Below are positions 56,980 to 64,000 of a stretch of DNA of 64,000 nt, in pieces (the first letter of the stretch is position 1; each line of letters starts with the position of its first letter). The DNA is from Umezawaea tangerina. Its GTDB lineage: Bacteria > Actinomycetota > Actinomycetes > Mycobacteriales > Pseudonocardiaceae. The stretch is taken from positions 186,001-250,000 of the forward strand of contig NZ_PVTF01000005.1 in NCBI RefSeq assembly GCF_003002815.1, given 5' to 3'. Under the pieces are notes generated by a model. That model had not been told where the DNA came from. It saw nothing but the letters and a program-made list of their open reading frames with translations, and did no database searches. The translations under genes were made by a program, and so were the position numbers.

Positions 56980-59900
56980 ATGCGGATCCGCGTGTTGGGA
57001 CCGGTCACCGTGGGGACGGAGACCGGGGCGAGCGGGCTCGGCGGCCCGAAGCCGAAGGCGCTGCTGGTCGCCCTGCTGCGGCAGGCGCGGCACGTGGTCG
57101 CCACCGAACGGCTCGTGGACCTGCTGTGGGACGACTCGCCGCCGTCCTCGGCCACGGCGCTGGTGCACACCTACGTGTCGGTGCTGCGCCGGGGGATGGC
57201 CGCGGCCGGACTGGCCGAGGCGGTGCGCACCCGCGCCCCCGGCTACCTGCTCGACGTCGAGCACGGGGAGTGCGACGTCGACCTGTTCGAACACGAGCAC
57301 GAGCGGGCGCGCGAGGCGGAGCGCGACGGGGCGTTCGCCCTGGCCCACGAGCACTACCGGCGGGCGCTGTCGCTGTGGCGAGGACAGGCTCTCGGCGGGG
57401 TGGACGCCCGGTTCGCCGTCGCCTGGGCCGACGAGCTGCACGAACGCAGGCTGGCCGCGCGCGACGGGCTGGCCCGGTCCGACCTGGCGCTGGGCCGCGC
57501 CGAGGACGCCGCCCACGAACTGCGCGGACTGGTCACCGAACACCCGCTGCGCGAGGAGACCCGCGCCCTGCTGATGCGCGCCCTCGCCGAGTCCGGCAGG
57601 CAGGCCGACGCCCTGGAGGTCTACCGCGAGGGGCGCCGCCACCTGCTCGACGAGCTGGGCATCGAGCCCGGCAGGCCGTTGCGGGACCTGCACACCGCCA
57701 TCCTCGACGGCTCGGTGCCCGCCACCCGCGCCACCCCCGCGTCCCCCGTCCGCGTCTCCGCCCGTCCCGTGGCGCACACCCTCCCGCCCGACATCGGCGA
57801 CTTCACCGGGCGCACCGGCGAACTGGCCTCGGTGCTGGCGCTGGGCGGCACCCCGCCCGACGACCGCGTCACCAGGCCTGTCGTGGTGGTGTCCGGTGCG
57901 GGCGGGACCGGCAAGTCGACGCTGGCCGTGCACGCCGCGCACCGCCTCGCCCCGCGCTACCCCGACGGCCAGCTGTTCGTGGACCTGCGCGGGTTCGGCG
58001 CGGAACTGAGCCCGTTCACCGCCCTGGGCCGATTCCTGACCGCGCTGGGCGTGCGCGCCGCCGACCTGCCCACCACCCTGGACGAGCGGATCGCGCTGTA
58101 CCGGCAGCGCTTGGCCGGTCTGCGGCTGATCATCGTGCTGGACAACGCCCGCGCCGAGCAGCAGGTCCGCCCGCTGCTCCCCGGCGAACCGGGCTGCCTG
58201 GTGCTGGTGACCAGCCGGTCCAGGCTGGCCGGCATCGGCGGCGCGTTCCCCGTCGAGCTGGAGGTCCTGCGGACCCCGTCCGCGCTGGAGATGCTGGGCA
58301 AGATCATCGGACCGGAGCGGGTCGCGGGCGACCCGGACGCCGCCGGGCGCATCGCCGCCCTGTGCGCGGGCGTGCCGCTGGCCATCCGCGCGGCCGGCGC
58401 GAAACTGCTGGCCCGACCGCACTGGCCGCTCAAGTCGCTGGCCGCCCGCCTGGCCGACGAACGGCGCAGGCTCGACGAGCTGACCGTCGGCGACCTGGCC
58501 ATCCGGTCCTGCCTGTCGCTGAACTACGCCGAGCTGGACGACCGCAGGCGGCGCGCGTTCCACCTGCTGTGCCTGCTCGACCTGCCCGACTTCGGCTGGT
58601 GGTTGGCCGCACCGCTGCTGGACGTCGACACCGCCGAGGCAGAGGACGTCGTCGAGCACCTGGTCGACCTGCGGCTGCTCGACGTCGCCGGGGTCGACCA
58701 GATCGGCCGGGTCCGCTACCGCTTCCACGACCTCGTCCAGCTCTTCGGCGCCGAGCAGGCCGCCGAGCACGAGACCCGCGAGACCGTGACCGACGCCGTG
58801 GCGCGCTCGCTGACCGCGTGGGCGGACCTGGTCGAGGCGGGGGCACGTCGGCTGCCGCGGGTGACCCTTGGCCTGCGGATCGCGCCGAGCCGACAGGCCG
58901 AGGCCCACCCCGAGCTGATCGCCGAGGTCGAAGCGGACCCCGTGGGCTGGCTCAGGGCGGAGACCAGCACCGTGGTGCGCGCCGTGGAACGGGCTCGTGA
59001 GCTCGGTGTCGGCCGGACCGCCACCCTGCTGGTGTCCTCCCTGCTCTCGTCGACCTTCGCCGTGCGCAACGAGTTCGACGGGTGGCAACGCACCCAGGAG
59101 GTCGCGCTCGCCCTGGCCCGCGAAGGCCACGACCGGCGCGCCGAGGCGGTCGTGCTGGCCGGTTTGGGCCAGCTGCACTACGAGAAGGACGACTTCGCCA
59201 CCGCCCGGACCCACTTCGAGCAGGCCCTGCGGCACGCCGACGCCGTCGACGACGACGCCGTGCGCGCGGTGTGCCTGGTCGGCATCGGCACCGTGCGCCG
59301 GGAACAGGGCCACGTCGTCCCCGCGACGTACGCCCTCACCACCGCGGCCGACCTGGCCGAACGCCTCGGCGAGGACAGCGTGGTCGCCGCCGCCGAGTAC
59401 GGCCTCGGCGCCCTGCACCGCGACCACGGCGACCTCGGTGAGGCCGCCGACCGGTTCCGCCGGGCCGCGCACCGCTACGCCGCCGTGGAGGACCCGCGCG
59501 GTGAGGCCCTGGCCATGCGCGGCCTGAGCCTGTGCCACCGGGCTCGCGGCGAGTACCGGGAGGCCGCCGACCTCAGCGGCCGGGCCGCCGCGAACCTCCT
59601 CGCGGCGGGCGACGAACTGGGCGCCACCTACTCCCGGCAGGCGTGGGTGAAGGCGAGCCTGCGCCTGGTCCCCGCCGTCGACCTGGTCGGCCCGCTGGTC
59701 GAGTGCCTGGCGGTGTGCGAACGCGGCCACGACCGGTTCGGCGTCGCCCTGGTCACCCGCACCCTCGGCGAGCTCCACCTGGCCCGCAACGACCTCCCCG
59801 CCGCCCGCGAGCACCTGACCGCGGCACTGGCCCTGTGGACCGAGCTCGGCCTGGACGTCTGGCGCGCCCGCACCCTGCGCGACTTGGCCGCCGCCGACCC

Positions 59901-60030
59901 GTCCCGGCAGGACGAGCACTGGACCGCCGCCCTCGACCTGCTGCACGGCACCGGCGCGCGCGAGGAGCGCGAGCTCGCCGCCACCACCCCGCGGCAGTGG
60001 CGCGACACCGTCCGCCGACAGGCGACCTAG
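56980..60030 (+). CDS. SARP-type regulator with NB-ARC and TPR domains (AfsR-like)
   Basis: This 1016-residue multidomain activator has an OmpR-like winged DNA-binding domain at residues 1-95 (MRIRVLGPV, GPKPKALLVALL). The bacterial transcriptional activation domain is at about 98-245 (ECDVDLFEHE, LLDELGIEPGRPLRDLH). The NB-ARC ATPase spans about 290-580, with Walker A GAGGTGKST near 306 and a Walker B IIVLDN near 386. TPR-like helical repeats run from about 690 to the end. AfsR/DnrI proteins of this shape activate secondary-metabolite or developmental genes. ATG 56980 follows a G-rich ribosome site. Its TAG stop coincides with the target duplication of the insertion element; the site without the element would still read TAG, so the gene is intact. 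Confidence 0.92.
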   Translation: MRIRVLGPVTVGTETGASGLGGPKPKALLVALLRQARHVVATERLVDLLWDDSPPSSATALVHTYVSVLRRGMAAAGLAEAVRTRAPGYLLDVEHGECDVDLFEHEHERAREAERDGAFALAHEHYRRALSLWRGQALGGVDARFAVAWADELHERRLAARDGLARSDLALGRAEDAAHELRGLVTEHPLREETRALLMRALAESGRQADALEVYREGRRHLLDELGIEPGRPLRDLHTAILDGSVPATRATPASPVRVSARPVAHTLPPDIGDFTGRTGELASVLALGGTPPDDRVTRPVVVVSGAGGTGKSTLAVHAAHRLAPRYPDGQLFVDLRGFGAELSPFTALGRFLTALGVRAADLPTTLDERIALYRQRLAGLRLIIVLDNARAEQQVRPLLPGEPGCLVLVTSRSRLAGIGGAFPVELEVLRTPSALEMLGKIIGPERVAGDPDAAGRIAALCAGVPLAIRAAGAKLLARPHWPLKSLAARLADERRRLDELTVGDLAIRSCLSLNYAELDDRRRRAFHLLCLLDLPDFGWWLAAPLLDVDTAEAEDVVEHLVDLRLLDVAGVDQIGRVRYRFHDLVQLFGAEQAAEHETRETVTDAVARSLTAWADLVEAGARRLPRVTLGLRIAPSRQAEAHPELIAEVEADPVGWLRAETSTVVRAVERARELGVGRTATLLVSSLLSSTFAVRNEFDGWQRTQEVALALAREGHDRRAEAVVLAGLGQLHYEKDDFATARTHFEQALRHADAVDDDAVRAVCLVGIGTVRREQGHVVPATYALTTAADLAERLGEDSVVAAAEYGLGALHRDHGDLGEAADRFRRAAHRYAAVEDPRGEALAMRGLSLCHRARGEYREAADLSGRAAANLLAAGDELGATYSRQAWVKASLRLVPAVDLVGPLVECLAVCERGHDRFGVALVTRTLGELHLARNDLPAAREHLTAALALWTELGLDVWRARTLRDLAAADPSRQDEHWTAALDLLHGTGAREERELAATTPRQWRDTVRRQAT

Positions 60031-60195
60031 GGCGTGTGTCGAAGTCCGTGTTCGCGGTAGCCGGGCCTGAGGCGGCCCCTGGCGGTGCGGCCGACTGGCC
60101 CGCATACAACAGCGGTATGCGGGCCAGTCGGCCGCACCGCCAGGAACCACCTCAGGCGCGACTCCCATCGAACGAGACTTCGACACACGCCCTAG
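60027..60195. mobile_element. IS5-type miniature inverted-repeat element with CTAG target duplication
   Basis: A 161-base element (60031-60191) is bounded by perfect 16-bp terminal inverted repeats, GGCGTGTGTCGAAGTC and its complement. It is flanked by CTAG on both sides, fitting the YTAR target of IS5-group transposons. Its centre is a 30-bp perfect stem (60078-60107 with 60115-60144) around a 7-base loop, with further matches outside (CCTGAGG/CCTCAGG). It carries no transposase gene, so it is non-autonomous. It lies right after the SARP gene and upstream of the hydrolase pair, and its hairpin could end SARP transcripts. Confidence 0.75.
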
Positions 60196-60455
60196 AGGCG
60201 ATCTACAGGTGCGCGAGGCCTGCCTGTACGCCACTTGGAGCCGACCTGCAGGCGTGGTCGCCAGGCTTCTGGTTGTCAGCGAAGACGACGACCGGGAACC
60301 GAGGTGCGACCACGACGCCCACCGCGGGAACGCCGTCCCCGGCCTGGGGGCCCGCCCGACCGGACGTCGTGCTCGTCGCACCGCCGCACGAGTGGACACC
60401 GCTCGCGCCCGACCCGGTGAACCAGAAACCGCCGAACTCCCGGAAGGACCGGACC

Positions 60456-61961
60456 ATGCTCCACAAGACCGGCTCCACCCTGCGCGCGATCCTCCTCGCC
60501 GCGGCCGTCGCGGGCAGCGCACTGCTCACCGCGGGACCGTCCGCCGCCGCGCAGGACGACTTCTCCACCATGCTCGCCTGCGAGCAGTACGCGAACCACC
60601 GCACCACCACGCGCGACGAGATGCTGACCCGCTCGCAGAGCTGGATCAGCGCACGCGTCCCGTACAGCCAGGGCACCTGCTACCGCAACGCCTACGGCCA
60701 GTACCGCACCGACTGCTCCGGTTACGTCTCGATGATCTGGGGCGCCCGGCACAGCTACACCACCAGCGACATCGACTACATCTCCCACGAGATCCCGCGC
60801 GCCGACCTGCGCCCCGGCGACGCGCTCAACGACCCCGGCTCCCACGTCGCGCTGTTCCTGCGCTGGGCCGACGCGGCCAAGACCCAGCCGGTCGTCCGCG
60901 AACAGGCCGGTCCCAACGGCTCTCCGACGACGGAACGCACCTGGTCCGCGGCCACCGCGAGCGCGTACACCCCGATCCGGTACGACCACGTGGCCGACGC
61001 GGCGACTCCGCCACCCGCCGACACTGCGGACCCGATGTACCACCAGATCCGCAACGCCAACGGCACGTGGACCGGGTTCCGCCCCCTCGCCGGGTACGAG
61101 ACCGACCTCCCCGGCGACGCCAAGGACGTGGGCATCGCGACCATGGCCGACGGCACCGCGCAGGCCGTGATCATCGGCGCGGATGACGTGGTGTACCACC
61201 AGATCCGCGCCGCCGACGGCACCTGGAGCGGCTTCCGGCCGTTGGCGGGCAACGGCACCACCGCACCCGCCAAGGCCAAGCGGGTCGCCGTCACCGGCAT
61301 GGCCGACGGCCGGGCGCAGCTGGTCATCATCGGGTGGGACGACCGGATCTACCACCAGGTCCGCGACGTCGACGGCACCTGGAGCGGCTTCCAGCCCGTC
61401 AACGGCATGAACACCACGACACCCGCCGCGGGCAAGGACGTCGCCATCGACGCCCTGCCGGACGGCAGCGCGCACCTCGTGATCACCGGTGCCGACGACG
61501 TGGTCTACCACCGGGTCCGCACCGACGCGGGCTGGACCGAGTTCCGACCGGTGGCCGGGTACCAGACCACCGCCCCGGCCAAGGGGAAGCGGGTCGCCGT
61601 GACCGGCATGGCCGACGGCCGCGCCCAGCTGGTCATCATCGGCTGGGACGACCGGATCTACCACCAGGTCCGGAACGTCGACGGCACCTGGACCGGGTTC
61701 CAGCCCGTCAACGGGATGAACACCACCACGCCCGCCGCGGGCAAGGACGTCGCCATCGACGCCCACCCGGACGGCACCGCCCAGTTGCTGGTCATCGGTG
61801 CCGACGGCGGTGTCTACCACCGCGTCCGCACCGACACCGGGTGGACCGAGTTCACGCCCGTCGCCGGCATGGGCACCACCGCGGGCGCGAAGGGCAGCCA
61901 GGTCGCCATCTCCGCCCAGGACGACGGCACCGCCCAGATCATGATCGTCGGCGGCGCCTGA
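60456..61961 (+). CDS. Secreted NlpC/P60-like cysteine hydrolase with six-repeat propeller-like C-terminus
   Basis: This 501-residue protein has a signal peptide of about 32 residues ending SAAAQ. Residues 36-185 form an NlpC/P60-like domain with nucleophile Cys87 in RTDCSGYV and His130 in DPGSHVALF, the layout of peptidoglycan endopeptidases; extra cysteines (42, 75) may pair. A Pro-rich hinge follows. From residue 194 there are six repeats of about 51 residues, each of the form YHQIR..DGTW.GF.PL.G followed by DG.AQ.VIIG. These alternate between ADDV and WDDR endings. Such repeats probably fold as a six-bladed propeller binding wall glycans. GGAAGGA precedes ATG 60456. The gene after it encodes a different hydrolase with the same C-terminal half. 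Confidence 0.82.
   Translation: MLHKTGSTLRAILLAAAVAGSALLTAGPSAAAQDDFSTMLACEQYANHRTTTRDEMLTRSQSWISARVPYSQGTCYRNAYGQYRTDCSGYVSMIWGARHSYTTSDIDYISHEIPRADLRPGDALNDPGSHVALFLRWADAAKTQPVVREQAGPNGSPTTERTWSAATASAYTPIRYDHVADAATPPPADTADPMYHQIRNANGTWTGFRPLAGYETDLPGDAKDVGIATMADGTAQAVIIGADDVVYHQIRAADGTWSGFRPLAGNGTTAPAKAKRVAVTGMADGRAQLVIIGWDDRIYHQVRDVDGTWSGFQPVNGMNTTTPAAGKDVAIDALPDGSAHLVITGADDVVYHRVRTDAGWTEFRPVAGYQTTAPAKGKRVAVTGMADGRAQLVIIGWDDRIYHQVRNVDGTWTGFQPVNGMNTTTPAAGKDVAIDAHPDGTAQLLVIGADGGVYHRVRTDTGWTEFTPVAGMGTTAGAKGSQVAISAQDDGTAQIMIVGGA
61035..61958 (+). repeat. Six tandem coding repeats (about 154 bp each) in the NlpC/P60-like gene
   Basis: Six in-frame repeats of about 51 codons run from the MYHQIR near 61035 to the stop. 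Odd repeats mostly end IGADDV and even repeats IGWDDR, so the array looks like a duplicated two-blade unit. Repeats 2 and 4 and repeats 3 and 5 are nearly identical over long stretches. Confidence 0.8.
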
Positions 61962-62034
61962 GCTCTCCGGGTGGTCCGCCGCGGACGACCGCGGCGGACC
62001 ACCGCCACCCCCTCGACACCCAGGAGGAAAGACC

Positions 62035-63588
62035 GTGAAGATCCCCGGCAGAGCGGCGTTGCTCGGCATCGTCGCGGCCGCCGCGCTGAGCGCGATGGCC
62101 CCGTCCGCCCAAGCCGCCCCGTCCAACGACGAGCTGCTCACCACCACCGCCCCCGCCACCACGACCAGCAGCGCCCGGTCTCAGGCGGACTACTGGGCCG
62201 CCGCCGAACCGCGTGCCCGCGCCGTCAAGGCCGAGTACGACATCCCGGCCTCCGTCACCGCCGCCCAGGCCGCGCACGAGTCCGCGTACGGCGGCAGCAG
62301 GCTCGCCGCGGAGTTCGACAACCACTTCGGCATGAAGTGCGTCTCGGCCACGAACCCCGGCCCCATCGCCGTCGGCTGCCGCAGCCTGTCGACCGAGGAG
62401 TGCCAGCCCAGCTGCACGCCCACCACGGCCTACTTCCGCGTGTACGCCACCATGACCGACTCGTTCCGCGACTACGGCAGGGTCCTGACCACCAGCTCCA
62501 ACTACACCCACGCGCTGCCCTACCGGCACGACCCCCGCGAGTTCATCCGCCAGGTCGCCCGGAGCTACGCGACCGACCCGGACTACGCGACCAAGATCAT
62601 CGCGATGATGGACGCCAACGACCTCTATCGCTACGACGTCGGCGGCGCGACGCAGCACGCGCCGATGTACCACCAGATCCGCGCGGCCGACGGCACCTGG
62701 TGCGGTTTCCGGTCACTGGCCGGCTACCAGACCACGTTGCCGGGCAACGCCAAGGACGTCGCGGTCGCCGCTCTCGACGACGGCACGGCGCAGGTGCTGA
62801 TCATCGGCGCGGACGACGTGGTCTACCACGAGATCCGCGCAGCCAACGGCACCTGGAGCGGCTTCCAACCCCTGGCGGGCAACGGCACCACCGCACCCGC
62901 CAAGGGCAAGCAGGTCTCCATCACGGGGACGGCCGACGGCACCGCCCACGTGGTCATCGTCGGCTGGGACGACCGCGTCTACCACCAGGTCCGCGCAGCC
63001 GACGGCACGTGGACCGGCTTCCAACCCCTGGCGGGCAACGGCACCACGCTCCCCGCGGTGGGCAAGGACGTGGCGATCGCCGCACTGCCGGGCGGCACCG
63101 CCCAGGTGCTCATCATCGGCGCGGACGACGTCGTCTACCACGAGATCCGCACCGCCAACGGCACCTGGAGCGGCTTCCAACCCTTGGCGGGCAACGGCAC
63201 CACCGCACCGGCCAAGGGCAAGCGCGTCGCGATCGCGGGCATGACCGACGGCACCGCCCAGGTGGTCATCGTCGGCTGGGACGACCGGATCTACCACCAG
63301 ATCCGCGACACCGCGGGCGGCTGGAGCGGGTTCCAACCGGTCAACGGCATGAACACCACCCTCCCCGCCGCGGGCAAGGACGTCGCCATCGGCACCCACC
63401 CCGACGGCACCGCCCAGCTGCTGGTCATCGGCAGCGACGACGGCATCTACCACCGCATCCGCACAACCACCTCCTGGACCCCCTTCACCACCGTCGCCGG
63501 CACCGACGGCACCCCCGCCAAGGGCTCACGGGTAGCCCTCTCCGGCACCCCCGACAACACCGCGCAGATCCTCATCACCGGCCGGTGA
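62035..63588 (+). CDS. Secreted glucosaminidase-like muramidase with the same six-repeat C-terminus
   Basis: This 517-residue protein has a signal peptide of about 27 residues ending AQA. A Thr/Ser/Pro-rich stretch is followed by a lysozyme-fold domain of the FlgJ/endo-beta-N-acetylglucosaminidase type (about 50-205), with IPASVTAAQAAHESAYGGS containing catalytic Glu82, and then NHFGMKC. Residues 211-517 are six repeats of the same family and order as in the preceding protein, alternating ADDV and WDDR. It should cut glycan strands of peptidoglycan. GTG 62035 has an ideal AGGAGGAAAG site. The 73-base gap suggests co-transcription, and the pair can attack both peptide and glycan bonds while sharing a targeting module. 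Confidence 0.84.
   Translation: MKIPGRAALLGIVAAAALSAMAPSAQAAPSNDELLTTTAPATTTSSARSQADYWAAAEPRARAVKAEYDIPASVTAAQAAHESAYGGSRLAAEFDNHFGMKCVSATNPGPIAVGCRSLSTEECQPSCTPTTAYFRVYATMTDSFRDYGRVLTTSSNYTHALPYRHDPREFIRQVARSYATDPDYATKIIAMMDANDLYRYDVGGATQHAPMYHQIRAADGTWCGFRSLAGYQTTLPGNAKDVAVAALDDGTAQVLIIGADDVVYHEIRAANGTWSGFQPLAGNGTTAPAKGKQVSITGTADGTAHVVIVGWDDRVYHQVRAADGTWTGFQPLAGNGTTLPAVGKDVAIAALPGGTAQVLIIGADDVVYHEIRTANGTWSGFQPLAGNGTTAPAKGKRVAIAGMTDGTAQVVIVGWDDRIYHQIRDTAGGWSGFQPVNGMNTTLPAAGKDVAIGTHPDGTAQLLVIGSDDGIYHRIRTTTSWTPFTTVAGTDGTPAKGSRVALSGTPDNTAQILITGR
62665..63585 (+). repeat. Six tandem coding repeats in the glucosaminidase-like gene
   Basis: Six in-frame repeats of about 51 codons begin at the MYHQIR near 62665. 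They match the array in the upstream gene in number, phase and alternating type, and share long identical codons, which suggests duplication of the whole array followed by homogenisation. Confidence 0.8.
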
Positions 63589-63605
63589 CGCACCACAGCC
63601 GACAA

Positions 63606-63647
63606 CTGGGGCGTGGCGGGGAGATTCGTCTCCCCGCCACGCCCCAG
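63606..63647 (+). terminator. Terminator hairpin with UUCG tetraloop after the hydrolase pair
   Basis: A 19-bp perfect stem (CTGGGGCGTGGCGGGGAGA and complement) is closed by TTCG, an unusually stable tetraloop, 17 bases after the stop at 63588. Confidence 0.85.
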
Positions 63648-64000
63648 TACACCGCCCGCTCGGACGGCCCCGGACGGGTCCGGGCGACTACCCCAGTAGT
63701 CCACAAAGGACTCGATCGCCGCCGAGTCGTGCGCCGGGCCAAGGGAAAGCGGCCGCCGTGCGGTCGGCCGTGCTAATCTGGGATGAGCGTGTCGGTCGAG
63801 GGGACGATCGAAACGGGGGGATTGGTCATTCGACGTCGATGAGCCACGTGCGGTGACGTTCGCGCGGCGCGGTTCCCGCCGCACCACAGCCAGGCAGCCG
63901 CACATCTGCGGTTGCTCGCCAGGTGGGAAACAGACCCTGGTACGGGATCCGTTCTCGACATGTCCCCGCCGCCTTCGCGGGATCGTCGGACCGGATCGTC
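63648..64000. other. Right-edge intergenic sequence with a possible promoter
   Basis: No gene is supported in the last 350 bases. GCTAATCT near 63771-63778 resembles a -10 element reading to the right. A GGGGGG tract near 63815 resembles the leader before the SARP gene, so a gene may begin beyond the window edge or in this stretch with a start I cannot fix. Confidence 0.35.

Follow-up and report, generated by a model that had tools for sequence, protein, structure and literature searches.

That enzymes cutting glycans and enzymes cutting peptides act jointly on walls is well established. Hydrolases built from one targeting part and varying catalytic parts have also been described: in the portion of the GH184 study available to us, one wall-binding module is naturally joined to several catalytic kinds, including C40, M23, GH24 and GH73 (PMC10394673), and in the available portion of a study of archaeal hydrolases, the catalytic part is replaced and genes are transferred between lineages, likewise as here (PMC12352652). 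Here we describe two genes of Umezawaea tangerina, lying 73 bp apart on the + strand of a 64,000-nucleotide stretch of contig NZ_PVTF01000005.1 (positions 186,001 to 250,000; the window), that join an NlpC/P60-like front half (gene 1) and a GH73 glucosaminidase front half (gene 2) to a common C-terminal propeller (Table 1). In our reading, the two genes are probably a co-targeted peptidoglycan-lysing pair and an instance of a recurrent actinomycete cassette; as an architecture, a co-targeted device for two kinds of bond is well supported. The observations on which this reading is built are the sequences themselves, the predicted fold, a strict pairing of glycan with peptide cutters and the similarity of partners at third codon positions. 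No description of propeller-sharing hydrolase pairs was found in the literature searched, which comprised open-licence papers only, so this absence is weak.

A preliminary description of the window had reported adjacent, secreted-looking genes with unrelated fronts and a common six-repeat half, and its coordinates proved exact. The propeller halves are 71% identical and their alignment scores 1181, where 200 shuffles gave a mean of 46 and at most 76. No similarity is seen between the N-terminal halves, whose score of 29 lies below the mean for shuffled sequences (33). The repeats, described as six in each protein and about 51 residues long, are seen as six YHxxR motifs in each C-terminal half at a spacing of 51–52 residues. 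Further, the blades alternate between two types in both propellers, which fits a 309–312 bp period alongside the 156 bp period. The check for a six-bladed propeller that the preliminary description proposed was run with AlphaFold2, Foldseek and VIA-align, and all three support the fold. The predicted local distance difference test score (pLDDT) is mostly above 90 across the propeller half of gene 1, which aligns to lectin propellers in both Foldseek and VIA-align; lectins of the PLL/PHL/CV39L type stand in the top Foldseek ranks for the window propellers, and the gene 2 protein matches PDB entry 8q82 with E 1.7e-29. Both C-terminal halves are predicted to be six-bladed beta-propellers of the PLL/PHL/CV39L/AAL lectin type. 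Runt-domain and acylphosphatase entries also matched the repeats, which we attribute to chance or low complexity, and the gene 1 repeats gave weak PDB matches to Tc-toxin B-component chains (E ∼0.006). A third, remote propeller open reading frame (ORF) of 291 amino acids is present elsewhere in the same genome (L133, 4967–5842).

The catalytic residues were also as first described: Cys87 and His130 of gene 1 stand within TDCSGY and SHVALF, and Glu82 of gene 2, the catalytic Glu, stands within AHESAYG. As to the families assigned from them, that of gene 2 held without change, and on sequence the GH73 assignment is firm (PF01832 at 97.2 bits against a cut-off of 30.2). For gene 1, the NlpC/P60 assignment held in a divergent form, as the protein has no PF00877 match in Pfam and that model matches only 2 of 11 NlpC-like relatives of gene 1 (best E 4e-4). 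Across the 11-row alignment of these relatives, the Asp-Cys-Ser-Gly context, with Asp before the Cys, and the His are invariant, and the catalytic Cys and His follow the order and context of the NlpC/P60 family. When the gene 1 NlpC-like family was compared by hhalign with eight ordinary NlpC domains that the genome also encodes, a probability of 95% was obtained over 52 columns, which cover both the Cys and the His. The PDB profile matches of this half are weak (best E 0.0047): among the 12 at E≤1, six bear the name NlpC/P60, Spr/MepS or cell-wall hydrolase, and the remaining six are xylanase and SufS entries. AlphaFold2, with the domain modelled inside the whole protein, gave a pLDDT of ∼80–96 over residues 51–180; a structure search with the whole gene 1 model was filled by propellers. 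Overall, the front half of gene 1 appears to be a divergent NlpC/P60-like subfamily mostly beyond the reach of Pfam. In the model of gene 2 the GH73 half is poor, with a pLDDT below 50 for most of residues 1–165, and only the propeller was used. Gene 2 starts with GTG, preceded by the ribosome site GGAGGAAA, and the signal peptides of both genes were read by eye only. The window genome also encodes an NlpC-like relative of gene 1 (L066, 5747–7357) with a quite different, Trp-rich C-terminal repeat.

We searched 390 genomes of the Pseudonocardiaceae for the propeller and found a match in 23 at E 1e-8 and in 30 by profile at 1e-12. The preliminary description had taken rare adjacency in relatives as a point against itself; adjacency proved not to be rare for the architecture, and other Pseudonocardiaceae genomes have neighbouring genes with the common propeller and other front halves, but the exact NlpC-like+GH73 pair, in the same gene order, was seen only in U. 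tangerina and Lentzea terrae, whose proteins are ∼80% and ∼78% identical to the products of genes 1 and 2. A second search covered 394 genomes of another actinomycete family, probably Streptomycetaceae, of which 165 had a propeller match at E 1e-15. The best 150 of the matched rows correspond to 144 genes in 108 groups; 70 of these genes fall into 34 multi-gene groups (within 12 kb). Every multi-gene group and 20 of the 74 groups with one gene were taken, and successive fetches yielded 89 loci in all (the window + 16 + 20 + 52); L049 and L066–L068 (downstream or paralogue stretches) and some matched rows of the window-family searches are not among them. Each front half was assigned to a class by its likeness to 25 self-chosen reference domains, so that unrecognised enzymes are missed; the families of these references were checked against Pfam (CHAP, M23, RPF-type transglycosylase, SLT_3 and Rv2525c/GH25-like) and PDB profiles (GH184). 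This classified 112 of 176 propeller ORFs, the longest-ORF starts of which overlap neighbours in many loci; in two of the 34 groups (L169 and L171) only one gene was classifiable.

Forty-three of the 89 loci (nine from the window family and 34 from the second) contain two or more tool-supported wall hydrolases, each bearing the propeller. All 43 join a glycan cutter (GH73, SLT_3, RPF, GH184-like or GH25-like) to a peptide cutter (NlpC-like, CHAP or M23), in 13 combinations, and none has two genes of the same class. Label shuffling gave a mean of 22.2 mixed loci out of 43 and a maximum of 35 in 50,000 trials. To blunt phylogenetic repetition, each combination was also counted once, and 13 of 13 were mixed compared with a mean of 7.2, a result reached in 27 of 50,000 trials; the shuffling takes genes as exchangeable, and shared ancestry is not fully removed. 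Only one way of dividing the eight families into two bins puts the members of every combination on opposite sides, and this is the division by biochemistry. An "M15-like" class (L060, L061 and L136), set up from an HxH motif seen by eye, was dropped for want of any Pfam, PHROG or PDB match, which changed the count from 44/44 to 43/43 mixed loci; without the GH25-like class, whose activity is putative, it is 42/42.

In many loci the partners also resemble each other at the DNA level. We compared the third-codon identity of partners with that between either gene and the best match of its class among the other fetched loci, and partners were closer in 26 of 48 within-locus pairs: 13 of 14 for M23+SLT_3, five of six for CHAP+RPF, two of two for CHAP+GH184-like, two of two for M23+RPF, none of three for NlpC+SLT_3 and none of two for GH73+NlpC, the type in the window. 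By protein identity, the partner was the nearest relative for 47 of 90 genes, and a coarse blade signature, which partly restates homology, was identical in 27 of 47 partner pairs compared with 12.5% of random non-partners. Such similarity at third positions suggests gene conversion and not protein-level selection alone. In locus L058 (4794–8026), a GH184-like and a CHAP gene are transcribed divergently; their propellers are 100% identical, even at third codon positions, and form an inverted repeat of nearly 1 kb.

We propose that both proteins are exported and that the common six-bladed, lectin-type propeller, binding multivalently, would dock each enzyme on the same repeated surface glycan. 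At the docking site, the NlpC/P60-like enzyme would cut stem peptides and the GH73 enzyme the glycan strand, so that the wall beneath would lose both kinds of bond. The recurrent actinomycete cassette would then consist of one cutter per bond type, each fused to the same propeller, with gene conversion keeping the two propellers alike in many tightly packed cassettes. A wider proposal, that matched-warhead cassettes are a widespread weapon of actinomycetes, in which a glycan cutter and a peptide cutter, freely chosen from at least eight catalytic families, each bear the same lectin propeller, and that conversion between the neighbours keeps both directed at one surface sugar while the aim diverges between cassettes, is tentative and in our judgement somewhat short of probable.

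Several findings weigh against a co-targeted lytic pair. Of the 89 loci, 22 have a single classified hydrolase and 23 have none, and in wider stretches round 20 chosen loci, mostly single, at least 10 remained without a recognised partner; a GH184-like gene with another C-terminal part was seen near three M23 genes in these stretches. The propeller is also carried by enzymes unlinked to peptidoglycan and occurs as stand-alone lectins. Partners were closer at third positions in none of nine GH184+M23 pairs, and because the gaps between these genes range from 202 to 5680 bp, distance alone fails to explain the missing homogenisation. The window and Lentzea pairs are not homogenised either: the third-position identity of the partners is 0.73 and 0.70, compared with 0.74 and 0.80 for same-class relatives. 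The hairpin between genes 1 and 2 may separate the transcription of the two. Finally, the sugar-contact positions of PHL, as recorded in the portion of PMC5584973 available, are altered in the window repeats, judging by sequence, and sugar binding itself is not certain.

This last point bears on whether the propeller targets a glycan at all or instead serves as a scaffold, for example by binding another secreted protein or each other. Propellers bind many kinds of ligand; in the window repeats, Tyr, Arg and Phe stand in 12 of 12 blades in place of the lectin motif's Trp, Gln and Trp (a mapping by sequence only). However, in both sequence and fold the closest solved structures are those of lectins that bind sugars, and a single aromatic-rich motif is kept in all 12 blades, and we consider a scaffold improbable. 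Ordinary domain shuffling, in which duplication and recombination spread a sticky secreted propeller to adjacent hydrolases that need not work jointly, appears less probable still: it would accommodate the fusions to trypsin-like, PHP-domain, GH43-like and other secreted proteins as well as the stand-alone propeller genes found in tandem, but chance copying leaves the 43 of 43 opposite-bond loci and the absence of same-class loci unexplained. The preliminary description had allowed that a match of the repeats to a known, unrelated domain with a known role outside the wall would tell against it. What was found lies halfway, as the repeats match a known lectin propeller that is also used outside wall hydrolases. 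Its paired wall-cutting device is supported in part, by both catalytic kinds, the common propeller and the mixed composition of every multi-hydrolase locus. The propeller is not specific to the wall: it is a general secreted targeting module, repeatedly used for matched wall-cutting pairs. Tandem arrays of stand-alone propeller genes (∼320–400 amino acids) were seen in L123, L124 and L125, from three genomes of one genus. In L127 (2690–4693), a further propeller protein with a GH43 domain lies beside an M23-containing set, and similar genes were noted by eye in L145, L147, L149–L152, L155, L156, L158, L159, L161, L163 and L164; such a protein is perhaps a third cutter, for a non-peptidoglycan wall sugar.

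We also considered whether the pair acts as developmental autolysins, which would remodel or free the organism's own spores, sporangia or hyphae, with the propeller reading a stage-specific glycan of its own surface. Filamentous actinomycetes need developmental wall enzymes of such a kind, and the NCBIfam model for GsmA (NF038016), a hydrolase of sporangiospore maturation, gives the GH73 domain 179.7 bits, a match that keeps this explanation alive. However, the score is under the cut-off of 240 and the match is confined to the catalytic part (model positions 152–316), the propeller is patchy in the family, with no match in two congeners at the thresholds used, and no conserved developmental neighbour was seen in the Lentzea stretch; on balance, this explanation is unlikely, if less so than the two above. 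A literature search on GsmA or a sporangiospore hydrolase, again limited to open-licence papers, returned nothing. For a co-targeted lytic pair, the patchy occurrence of the genes and the lack of conserved neighbours make the wall of another cell (in competition, predation or scavenging) a more likely target than that of the producer, an indication that is weak. The genome itself appears to enforce joint cutting here, with opposite-bond neighbours that have one targeting half in common, a half that is kept alike in many cassettes; if this reading is right, each cassette would name a matched enzyme pair and, via its propeller, a surface sugar, so that one could ask directly which cells actinomycetes dissolve and would have ready-made enzyme pairs for synergy tests.

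The pair looks like a unit of its own with its own control region (Table 1). The conserved upstream DNA and the intergenic hairpin accompany it in L. terrae, where the neighbours differ: none of the other ORFs in the 16-kb Lentzea stretch is strongly matched by one of the window or its downstream stretch. The Lentzea intergenic hairpin stands at the same place with a different stem sequence, and the hairpin after the second gene likewise differs in sequence. Upstream of the pair in the window lies a large SARP/AfsR-like regulator gene (56980–60030), which has dozens of relatives per genome in the genus and in Lentzea (57–69 matches each at E 1e-30). Its stop codon is overlapped by the end of an element resembling a miniature inverted-repeat transposable element (MITE), 169 bp long and nearly palindromic, with 20-bp ends containing CTAG, that is present at 24 places in the genome at ≥92% identity over nearly its full length; the conserved upstream DNA starts past it. 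Control of the pair by the SARP, as suggested in the preliminary description, is not supported: the Lentzea neighbours differ, the best SARP relative in Lentzea is on contig C44 whereas the pair is on C35, and the MITE-like element intervenes. A divergent Lentzea ORF ∼3.4 kb upstream of the pair (L050, 10054–12348) is weakly similar to the SARP protein (29% over 225 amino acids), and by sequence it appears to be a regulator of related make-up, not the same gene.

Table 1. Coordinates of the pair and its surroundings in the window
Feature	Position	Strand	Basis or remark
MITE-like element between the SARP gene and the pair	60027..60195	.	Perfect 20-bp inverted ends
Upstream DNA common to the Lentzea pair, probable promoter or control region	60196..60298	+	Local alignment, ∼100 bp
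Gene 1, secreted-looking NlpC/P60-like protein with C-terminal propeller, 501 amino acids	60456..61961	+	ORF; divergent NlpC/P60 match
NlpC/P60-like half with Cys87 and His130	60546..61019	+	Alignment of 11 rows; AlphaFold2
Propeller half of gene 1, six repeats (predicted fold)	61020..61958	+	YHxxR repeats; pLDDT; Foldseek, VIA-align
Perfect 15-bp hairpin directly after gene 1, between the genes	61970..62003	+	Folds at -41.8 kcal/mol
Gene 2, secreted-looking GH73 glucosaminidase with C-terminal propeller, 517 amino acids	62035..63588	+	ORF; PF01832 E 1.4e-27
GH73 glucosaminidase domain with Glu82	62209..62622	+	PF01832, residues 59–196
Propeller half of gene 2, six repeats (predicted fold)	62656..63585	+	71% identity to that of gene 1; AlphaFold2 high confidence; Foldseek to PHL, CV39L, AAL
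Perfect 20-bp hairpin that follows gene 2 and probably ends the unit	63605..63648	+	Strong hairpin also after Lentzea gene 2

Compared with known systems, the window propellers are like the PLL/PHL/CV39L lectins of Photorhabdus and Chromobacterium in repeat sequence and fold, but they have changed contact residues relative to PHL, fall short of the NCBIfam cut-offs (at best 92.9 of 200 bits for NF052348 and 102.2 of 350 bits for NF052350) and consist of six repeats behind hydrolases, whereas the Photorhabdus lectins are seven-bladed and free in the portions of the reports available (PMC6943638, PMC5584973). The six-bladed fucose lectins AAL and AFL have ∼10–12% identity to the window propellers, at which common descent is not established. 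Gene 2 has the same catalytic domain as GsmA and the FlgJ-type GH73 glucosaminidases but a different targeting half, and it scores under the GsmA cut-off; gene 1 has in common with the NlpC/P60 (C40) endopeptidases the order of the Cys/His motifs and a weak profile similarity, but is divergent. The GH184-like front halves of relatives match the GH184 muramidase structures 8b2h (E 1.9e-15) and 8b2e (E 1.1e-11); the module of that study is SH3-like and fungal, and side-by-side gene pairs are not described in the available portion (PMC10394673). A term search of the available text on the archaeal hydrolases gave no mention of a propeller or lectin, but these secreted modular peptidoglycan hydrolases, directed against other cells, combine a catalytic with a targeting part as the proteins of the window do (PMC12352652).

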